Part shown: piece by piece, positions 2,350-4,160 of the stretch | How the letters are laid out: each line of letters begins with the position of its first letter | Position numbering within the stretch: the stretch's first letter is position 1 | Assembly (NCBI RefSeq): GCF_018618475.1 | Contig: NZ_JACSMD010000001.1 | Location: forward strand, 1,674,001-1,738,000 | Length of the DNA stretch: 64,000 nt | Direction: 5' to 3' | Source of the DNA: Exiguobacterium sp. s122 | GTDB lineage: Bacteria; Bacillota; Bacilli; Exiguobacteriales; Exiguobacteriaceae | Notes under the pieces: model-generated | Database searches by the model: none | Seen by the model: only the letters and a program-made list of their open reading frames with translations | Told to the model about the DNA's origin: nothing | Position numbers and translations under genes: made by a program

Positions 2350-2841
2350 TCAAGCAGGTAAGTCCTCCACTCGAATAATCTTGCAGCCTTTCCCCTCGTA
2401 ATATTGAATCATCTCAGCAATCTTCTTTTGATCATAACTTGTTATACAATCGGACAGGACTTGAACATCATAGTTTGCTTTTCGCATGTTGTAACACGTC
2501 GACTTCACGCAGGCGATGGCATCCGCACCGGTGATGTAGAACGTCTCGACTTCATACTGCTCGATGAAGGCCGAGAACGCTTCGCTCGTTAACGCGTTTC
2601 CTTTATATTTCGTGAAGACGTGGTCAGACGCCACCTTCAAGTCCGGGACGAGTTCTGCCCCGCGCGTACCCGTTTTAAACGTCCTTGTTCCTGCTGAGAG
2701 ATTTTCATGACGGATGTAGACGACCGGCACGTCATGCTCGACGGCCCAATCAATCGAGTGATTGACGTTTTCAATCACGGTTTTGTAGTTTTTCGTAATA
2801 TCATTTTGAAGATCAATGACGACTAACGCTTCTTTTCCCAT
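2350..2841 (-). CDS. Isochorismatase-family cysteine hydrolase
   Basis: 163 residues with the fold and catalytic triad of the isochorismatase/nicotinamidase superfamily: Asp10 in ALVVIDLQND, Lys78 in VFTKYKGNAL and Cys111 in ADAIACVKSTCYN, preceded by the usual cis-peptide region. Such enzymes hydrolyse amide or vinyl-ether bonds in small molecules (nicotinamide, isochorismate, carbamoyl compounds), but sequence alone does not identify the substrate. GAGGAAAGAGG lies just upstream of the ATG. It is monocistronic, with no metabolic partner next to it. Confidence 0.85.
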   Translation of the reverse strand: MGKEALVVIDLQNDITKNYKTVIENVNHSIDWAVEHDVPVVYIRHENLSAGTRTFKTGTRGAELVPDLKVASDHVFTKYKGNALTSEAFSAFIEQYEVETFYITGADAIACVKSTCYNMRKANYDVQVLSDCITSYDQKKIAEMIQYYEGKGCKIIRVEDLPA

Positions 2842-2929
2842 CCTCTTTCCTCCTCATATCGAACAAATGGCTCGGTAGTCTTTTCTTTTCCTAATCATAA
2901 CAGAGTTCACTTATGGAAAATATAGGAAC

Positions 2930-3215
2930 AAATAAAAACGGACTGCGCTGCTACACTCGAACTGTAGATGAAACGAATCGTGCCATGCGATTTGGTTCGC
3001 CTTCTTTTCGGTTTAATAGTCCCGAGGCGCAATGCCCGACATAAAAGTGGAAGAAACGCAAAGACGAGTGGCCGCACAAGGGCGGCCTCTCGCGGCGCTC
3101 ATCCGACGGCGTCGTAGACTCCTATGGGAATAGCGAGCGAAGGGAGACGTAGTAGCGTTTAACGATACGGCTCCCTGTTCGCCCTAAGAGCGGAGACGCC
3201 AAGAGGATGAGTGAA
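2930..3215. other. Structured non-coding block, possible dispersed repeat or ncRNA
   Basis: There is no credible ORF between 2842 and 3267. The sequence is rich in nested inverted repeats. CTCATCC (3098-3104) pairs with GGATGAG (3205-3211); inside it GGCGTC (3108-3113) pairs with GACGCC (3195-3200). A long inner hairpin follows: GCGAAGGGAG (3137-3146) with CTCCC/TTCGC (3171-3182), then CGTA (3148-3151) with TACG (3166-3169), then a CGTT/AACG tip. A separate hairpin GGCCGC/GCGGCC lies at about 3070-3087 and another AATCG/CGATT near 2976-2993. From memory, the core resembles dispersed intergenic repeats common in Bacillaceae genomes. No second copy was seen in this window. Confidence 0.5.
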
Positions 3216-3234
3216 AACATTCTGTTCGTCAACA

Positions 3235-3263
3235 AACGGAGGACCGCAACGCGGCCCTCCGTT
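3235..3263 (-). terminator. Terminator of the Sco-downstream gene
   Basis: Stem AACGGAGG-A-CCGC / GCGG-C-CCTCCGTT with a 3-nt loop. It lies immediately downstream of the stop at 3268 and is followed on the minus strand by TGTTG. Confidence 0.65.
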
Positions 3264-3267
3264 GTCG

Positions 3268-3540
3268 TTACGTCGCGATGACGTTCAACGTCACATCGAC
3301 TTGCCCGAGCAACAAATCGAATTGATCTCGGATGTAACGGTACAACCGTTCCGCCTCAACGAGCGAGAGCGGTGCGATCACTTGATAATCGTAATGATTC
3401 TTTGATAAAGAAACGACTTTCACTTCCGGCAAGCCGAACTCGATTGCACTACACGCAATCAAATCCTCAATCGCCCGCTCCGCAATCGTGACATCTCCGT
3501 ATGAATAATCATTTCCAATCACAGCCATCGTATCGTTCAT
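3268..3540 (-). CDS. Small protein at the end of the ctaG cluster (YlbA position), unknown
   Basis: About 90 residues, soluble, no signal peptide. The pattern (GDVTIAERAIEDLIACSAIE, VKVVSLSKNHYDYQVIAPL, GQVDVTLNVIAT) vaguely recalls the Asp23/alkaline-shock fold, but I cannot assign it. The ATG at 3540 has GGAG 8 nt upstream, which lies in the 3' end of the Sco gene (stop at 3546). It is therefore almost certainly co-transcribed with ctaG, the DUF420 gene and Sco. That suggests, but does not prove, a link to oxidase biogenesis. Confidence 0.55.
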   Translation of the reverse strand: MNDTMAVIGNDYSYGDVTIAERAIEDLIACSAIEFGLPEVKVVSLSKNHYDYQVIAPLSLVEAERLYRYIRDQFDLLLGQVDVTLNVIAT

Positions 3541-3545
3541 CGTCT

Positions 3546-4160
3546 TCACTCCTTTTCAGCAACGAGCACGTTCACGTCCTCCATGATAGATTCGATATCG
3601 ACCGGTTGATCTCCTGTCGTCGCCATCTGCGCGACTGCCCGTACATCATGATGCCGATCGACGATGTACATCGTCGTCGCATGCGTGACGAGCCCACTGT
3701 TCGCTTTTGAATAATAGAACTGAAGCTGACGCGTGATGCGGTCGATATCCGCTTTTTCTCCCGTCAACACTTTCCAACCCGTCGGTTCGGCTTGAAAAGC
3801 AGCACCGTAATTTTCAAGCACCGGTACCGTATCGGTTTCCGGATCGACGGTAATGGCAACGAGTTCGACGTCGGTGCCATATAGTCCTTCGGTCTTCAAC
3901 TCTCGTTCGAGTTTCATGAAGTCTCGCAACGTGAGCGGACAGATATCAGGGCAGTTCGTGTAAAAGAACGTGACGACTTTGACTTTTCCGTTATCGGAAT
4001 TGTACGTCTCTCCATCTAATGCGTTCGTGAGTGTGAACGGTGTCGGCTCTTGAATGACCGGCAAGTCGTCCTGTTTAAAGAATATGAAATACGAGGCGAC
4101 GCCGATCGCGATCAGGACGGCAACCGTCAAACCGACCGTCGTGTAACTGTTCCGTTTCAT
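3546..4160 (-). CDS. SCO1/SenC family copper chaperone for cytochrome oxidase
   Basis: A 204-residue thioredoxin-fold protein anchored by one N-terminal membrane segment (residues about 8-28, LTVAVLIAIGVASYFIFF) with the domain outside the cell. The copper-binding motif CPDIC (Cys70, Cys74) lies in VVTFFYTNCPDICPLTL, and the third ligand His160 in SGLVTHATTMYIVDR. Sco proteins deliver copper to the CuA centre of oxidase subunit II, consistent with ctaC nearby. The ATG at 4160 has GGGGG 6 nt upstream; an in-frame GTG at 4184 overlaps the upstream stop. Co-transcribed with ctaG and the DUF420 gene. Confidence 0.9.
   Translation of the reverse strand: MKRNSYTTVGLTVAVLIAIGVASYFIFFKQDDLPVIQEPTPFTLTNALDGETYNSDNGKVKVVTFFYTNCPDICPLTLRDFMKLERELKTEGLYGTDVELVAITVDPETDTVPVLENYGAAFQAEPTGWKVLTGEKADIDRITRQLQFYYSKANSGLVTHATTMYIVDRHHDVRAVAQMATTGDQPVDIESIMEDVNVLVAEKE

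Follow-up and report, generated by a model that had tools for sequence, protein, structure and literature searches.

What is the block of 286 nt that lies between an isochorismatase-like gene and the ctaG cluster in Exiguobacterium sp. s122, and why is it so strongly structured? It was first described from the letters of the DNA alone, and this original prediction took it to be either a member of a dispersed repeat class or an expressed structured RNA. Here, we describe its origin and that of the hairpin that it carries; all positions refer to the window, the 64,000-nt stretch of genomic DNA that was analysed. The two outer helices are exact, 3098-3104 (CTCATCC) pairing with 3205-3211 (GGATGAG) and 3108-3113 (GGCGTC) with 3195-3200 (GACGCC), and the inner arm of the nested hairpin spans 3137-3182. 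The fold of the block beats 200 of 200 dinucleotide shuffles on either strand (z = -3.60 on the plus and -3.25 on the minus strand), and none of the overlapping ORFs of at least 40 aa, which are 42-64 aa long and lie on both strands, is credible. The block is thus structured and non-coding, as had been proposed.

With near certainty, the block is a MITE. It derives from an IS1182-family element, sits at the transcription terminator of a 93-aa ORF, and is slightly offset from 2930-3215, with a terminal repeat that extends to 3236. The features of the locus are as follows, where R1 is our own label for a hairpin module of ~130 nt.

2350..2841, minus strand: ORF that we take to be isochorismatase-like, after the original prediction; the downstream neighbour at eight empty sites
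2929..2956, minus strand: possible target duplication, in the form of a further terminator hairpin that has decayed; assessed with the G004 ortholog and shuffles
2957..3236, minus strand: ~280-bp, MITE-like remnant of an IS1182-family element; this is also the strand on which the parent would encode its transposase
2957..2970, minus strand: probable right terminal repeat CATCTACAGTTCGA (IS: GTCAACAGCCTGA), decayed; a weak call by position and by eye
2970..3001, minus strand: remnant of the IS 3' hairpin (GGCGAACC..), the counterpart of AAGACGAACC...GGTTCGTC at the IS 3' end; weak fold here, -6.6
3059..3093, minus strand: terminator-like hairpin GCGAGAGGCCGCCC..GCGGCCACTCGTCTTTG; fold of -20.3 kcal/mol for 3052-3096
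3092..3217, minus strand: R1 hairpin module, that is, the nested inverted repeats; 114.6 bits over all 133 model positions, by construction, as a seed member of alignment A1
3222..3236, minus strand: left end resembling a terminal inverted repeat, TTTGTTGACGAACAG (IS: TCAGATTGTTGACTAACAG), from the alignment of copies
3238..3260, minus strand: intrinsic terminator hairpin of the 93-aa ORF and target of the insertion, GGAGGGCCGCGTTGCGGTCCTCC, -22.9 kcal/mol
3268..3549, minus strand: 93-aa ORF on the ctaG side, whose terminator was hit by the insertion; present in 19/19 genus genomes

By DNA search, the host genome has one further clear copy, and 8 of 19 Exiguobacterium genomes, host included, carry copies; in one of them (G005), 11 near-identical copies share up to 1764 bp. 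Window positions 3235-3060 align with nt 6-188 of this IS at 83% identity and positions 3055-2987 with nt 1667-1735 at 75% identity; the first ~185 bp and a stretch near the 3' end of the 1764-bp IS are retained and, as these are the only parts that match, ~1.5 kb is missing. The same layout is found in an intact MITE of G004 (L059), which has a copy of the terminator hairpin on either side, as a perfect target duplication, and is 78% identical to the window element over 265 columns. This shared layout, together with the IS homology and the loss of ~1.5 kb, identifies the block as a MITE-like, non-autonomous derivative. Bacterial MITEs and small mobile repeats are short, non-coding and dispersed, and keep the ends of an IS; the block is likewise short and non-coding and keeps both IS end regions, with its right terminal repeat decayed.

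The strand of the IS that bears the transposase corresponds to the minus strand of the window, and in the full IS the terminator-like hairpin sits between R1 and the transposase start (in copy L046, the same hairpin is followed by TCTTTTT). The transposase halves of the G005 IS match NF033551 (IS1182) at 5e-71 and 7.2e-53, and its transposase pieces match Pfam DUF772 / DDE_Tnp_1_6. NF033551 is the best family for two pieces and five N-termini, which, as partial proteins, fall below its whole-protein cut-off; the whole transposase genes of R1-linked elements pass it. No transposase gene is present among the window ORFs of the element and no IS1182 transposase anywhere in the host genome, so no helper for the element is demonstrated there. 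The window copy is probably inert in its host, save for separating two gene units beside a terminator that was kept. Since the block is an IS1182-derived transposon remnant in a terminator, the original prediction, which missed this origin, went too far in calling its function undescribed in either case. As a side observation, 11/11 G005 copies, L046 among them, have a group-a IS1182 transposase that is split at A AAA AAG, and a gene of G009 (L092), 84% identical, is split at the same place; the split is probably a programmed -1 frameshift, which to our knowledge is unusual in the IS1182 family.

The element is present at this site in 2 of the 19 genus genomes (G000 and G004). Eight others (G018, G005, G007, G010, G017, G008, G012 and G009) have an empty site with both neighbours, in which the stop codon of the 93-aa ORF is followed by the terminator hairpin and T run and then by the start of the isochorismatase-like gene; the hairpin of G018 is nearly identical to window 3238-3260 and is followed by TTTTT. 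The remaining 9/19 genomes have a terminator-like hairpin with another downstream arrangement. When compared to the terminator hairpin, window 2929-2956 is matched or exceeded by 375/2000 shuffles and is not significant by itself; the G004 ortholog scores 19, a score reached by 10/2000 shuffles. Judged from this ortholog rather than from the window alone, a second, decayed hairpin copy at 2929-2956 is plausible, and these positions are probably decayed flank rather than element.

Hairpin duplication is plain in relatives. Of 10 G005 copies read at the right end (the shorter L045 was left out there), nine have the full hairpin on both sides and one (L050) has it in part. Eight of nine further ISs printed, from seven genomes, also have the full hairpin at both ends (three in G607 and one each in G261, G007, G291, G223 and G009), and in the ninth, L368 of G005, the inner part of the hairpin alone is duplicated. 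By a crude ORF pick, all 12 insertions in G005 and G004 lie 18-39 bp from an ORF end on at least one side, and 10/12 lie between facing ORFs. Targeting of palindromes or terminators, a trait of IS1182, is thus seen both in the relatives and at the window site. A biased orientation of insertion relative to the host gene was considered and rejected, as most sites are between facing ORFs.

As a decayed MITE in a terminator, the block is nothing out of the ordinary, and the interesting part is the R1 module. A first covariance model, built from 16 sequences of the genus Exiguobacterium only, has matches in 18/19 genus genomes and in 66/299 Bacilli genomes (E <= 1e-3; 11 candidates scored per genome), and its matches at this threshold include 42 Bacilli genomes from families other than that of the host. 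A second model (87 sequences) matches 3/299 phylum-wide genomes, all three Bacilli. Alignment A1 (the 16 sequences, not structure-fitted) has 96.8% of cells paired, against 41-53% with partners slid by 1-3 columns, and both partners vary in 13 pairs, compared to 1.9 +/- 1.2 pairs in shuffles. In alignment A4, which was fitted to the R1 model and is hence biased towards it, both partners vary in 31/40 pairs, and the score is 0.505, compared to at most 0.093 for slid partners. The internal loops and one U.G mismatch of R1 are conserved across Bacilli families, the U.G pair being found in 56.9 of 58 weighted clusters. As evidence of structure beyond chance, these comparisons far outweigh the fold. 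The original prediction mentioned Bacillaceae repeats with a 'TTCCC' core, and these are matched by the same genus-only model (ATCCCGCAGGAGTC and similar) with compensatory changes; its assignment of the block to a dispersed structured repeat class therefore stands, and instead of a single copy without covariation there are dispersed copies that covary strongly.

No relevant Rfam 15 family was detected for the whole window, the block (E <= 10) or 14 related loci. The sole strong match in those loci is an FMN riboswitch (L123, 2447-2588), which adjoins an R1-carrying IS in G007 and is an unrelated neighbour. Six core 13-mers of the repeat have no match in the main text of the open-licence PMC papers searched, and no description of an R1-like module was found in that collection. 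R1 is a conserved hairpin of IS1182-family ends that apparently has no name so far. Many R1 repeats stand alone, with TGTTGATT..AATCAACA ends; G264 has 14 scored matches, its R1-only repeats are 86-95% identical among themselves, and relatives lack the insert of a stand-alone repeat in this genome, with an exact boundary that is hidden by divergence. Several stand-alone copies (in G602 and G607) share flanks beyond R1. R1-bearing IS1182 elements are probably the origin of the widespread Bacillaceae intergenic repeat. In some copies the R1 hairpin is interrupted by another repeat, CGAAGAACGGCTTTTGCGACC.. or its complement, as in L361 (967-1205), L369 (3316-3491) and L351.

R1 keeps a conserved position beside IS1182 transposase genes. 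Among the Exiguobacterium matches listed, R1 lies on the same strand and within 600 nt upstream of 41/44 short-type transposase genes, compared to 0/10 of the long type. The three short-type exceptions are L375, L379 and a fragment in G016. In L375 (G011:C3:44525), an IS1182 of the L221/L222 type, R1 is missing between GACCGGGC and ATCAATCCC, the rest is kept and the transposase frame is still open, and from its sequence it looks like a natural R1 deletion control. Among 135 distinct R1 places, for many of which the flank was limited to 500 bases, an IS1182-like coding match follows on the same strand in 25, 40-146 nt away; five have one downstream on the opposite strand, all of them facing-pair composites, and one has an upstream match on the opposite strand. 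R1 also precedes the transposase gene in G202, G223, G291, G110, G261, G279 and G121 (L217). Four elements, L359, L360, L361 and L369 (three in G607 and one in G291), carry inward-facing R1 at both ends; the two copies within an element are 81-88% identical, and the far copies score 59.3, 57.7, 57.0 and 37.3 bits against 54.1, 53.4, 33.1 and 46.7 bits for the near ones.

The position of R1 relative to the IS terminator varies between groups. R1 is found at only 4/30 IS1182 loci fetched from other genera and is absent from the long-type genes listed, and thus is not universal in IS1182; beyond the family, 25/42 genomes with R1 lack an IS1182 match, so the repeats can persist or spread in its absence. 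That R1 is an IS1182 end module is well supported, and we hold with high confidence the joint claim that the window block is an IS1182-derived MITE and R1 a module of the IS end. Composites of ~0.5 kb with two facing R1 whose starts are ~380-400 bp apart recur (L228, L116, L091 and L094, in G016, G002 and G013), and are apparently hybrids of the left ends of two IS1182 groups. Separately, upstream of the transposase in L149, L155 and L134, the IS left end itself folds into a hairpin (AGACTGTAGACAAACTC..GAGTTTGTCTACAGTCTTTTTT) that has a T run and is followed by a TATAAT-like motif; many IS1182 elements have such a terminator, reading inward, at their border.

R1 may work as DNA or as RNA, and covariation was compared to that of a SAM riboswitch control from related genomes (69 sequences, with row L256 left out and L301 oriented by a fallback). 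In the strand-neutral helices of R1, GU:AC counts at three cut-offs are 41:33, 9:13 and 9:13, against 72:29, 43:21 and 10:2 for SAM; these counts are small and the related sequences are not independent. The excess of G.U over A.C that is expected of RNA is present in the SAM control and absent from R1 covariation. The transposase-sense strand folds better in 30/127 R1 sequences (from 146, after removal of one weak antisense row and duplicates), compared to 51/69 SAM sequences. For the transposase-sense strand, the strand tests thus show no hint of selection on RNA, and the expressed RNA that had been offered as the main alternative is not supported. Along with these two results, R1 at the far end of four elements cannot be a leader in that position; all three point to DNA, and none is decisive. 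Covariation that is strand-symmetric, unlike that of the SAM control, would follow from selection on DNA and so favours a DNA-level role over an RNA leader. Judging from such sequence comparisons, we give R1 about an even chance of acting at the DNA level. A fuller version is tentative and falls somewhat short of that: a large Bacilli lineage of IS1182 would carry at one or both ends a DNA hairpin organ, read as a structure by a hairpin-seeking DDE transposase, and would shed it as MITEs that are the source of the Bacillaceae repeats.

The conserved U.G pair is unexplained by selection on DNA, and R1 lies on the 5' side in every element with both a transposase gene and R1, as an RNA leader would also predict. 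As such a leader, R1 would fold within the 5' UTR of the transposase transcript and act together with the terminator-like hairpin that follows to limit expression, as an attenuator or translation block, the window copy being a relic. Consistent with this are the 25 of 135 places where R1 shortly precedes a same-strand coding match, the hairpin with TCTTTTT between R1 and the start codon in G005, and promoter-like motifs seen by eye ahead of R1 in L133, L149 and L155. In the L221/L222 type, a TATAAT-like motif seen by eye comes after R1, which would therefore fall outside that transcript; with the strand-symmetric covariation, the better fold of the opposite strand and the inward-facing far-end copies also against it, the leader is a possible but doubtful explanation. 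R1 might instead be a hairpin repeat in its own right, mobile or self-copying, that inserts by chance in or near IS1182, which would suit the many stand-alone copies (as in G264), the R1-positive genomes without an IS1182 match, the variable placement relative to the IS terminator, and L375, which resembles the same IS without R1. Its fixed orientation (25 same-strand downstream matches against five opposite downstream and one opposite upstream), a short-type occupancy among the genes listed that is too regular for chance insertion, and the flanks shared beyond R1 by stand-alone copies in G602 and G607 make this unlikely. It is most improbable that R1 is functionless, with template-switch correction in replication keeping its long inverted repeats self-complementary: this would account for Watson-Crick covariation in which G.U or A.C intermediates are few, but it would erase the internal loops and the U.G mismatch that are conserved across Bacilli families.

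In the favoured explanation, the block is a fossil MITE, an IS1182-family element that lost most of its transposase gene and that, long ago, entered the terminator hairpin following the 93-aa ORF. The responsible transposase targets terminator hairpins, which those of its relatives duplicate, and the window insertion may have made the same duplication, since decayed. R1 is carried just inside the IS end beside the transposase gene, and in some elements inside both ends. Under the DNA-level reading, it could extrude as a cruciform or fold as a single strand near the IS end and act in cis in transposition by the hairpin-seeking transposase. A DDE transposase that uses hairpin DNA both as a target and near its own ends would, if R1 acts as DNA, be open to test, and in such families DNA and RNA structure can be told apart simply by the strand asymmetry of covariation. 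A widespread structured Bacillaceae intergenic repeat gains a likely origin in IS1182-family elements; consequently, there is no need to annotate such blocks as candidate regulatory RNAs.

Unlike MITEs in general, the window element holds a long, conserved internal hairpin that it has in common with its parent IS. Among described repeats, Bhal-1 of Bacillus halodurans (74 bp, 36 copies), from a survey of stem-loop repeats, is like R1 repeats intergenic, stem-loop-forming and from Bacillaceae; going by its description in the available text, it could be of the same repeat class (PMC2267715). The elements described here share the transposase family and the targeting of stem-loops or terminators with IS1272 and TnSha1, staphylococcal elements of the IS1182 family whose stem-loop targets are often transcription terminators and have no primary sequence preference; the available text of the two reports on these elements mentions no R1-like module (PMC5678879, PMC4923244). 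IS1272 and TnSha1 are described there as deleting or replacing the target hairpin, with no target duplication (PMC5678879, PMC4923244). Unlike them, the IS1182 relatives studied here can keep the terminator that they enter and duplicate the whole hairpin. Hairpin targeting is therefore known, and whole-hairpin duplication is a variant outcome, one that an earlier model depicts as a possible route, its pathway b (PMC5678879).
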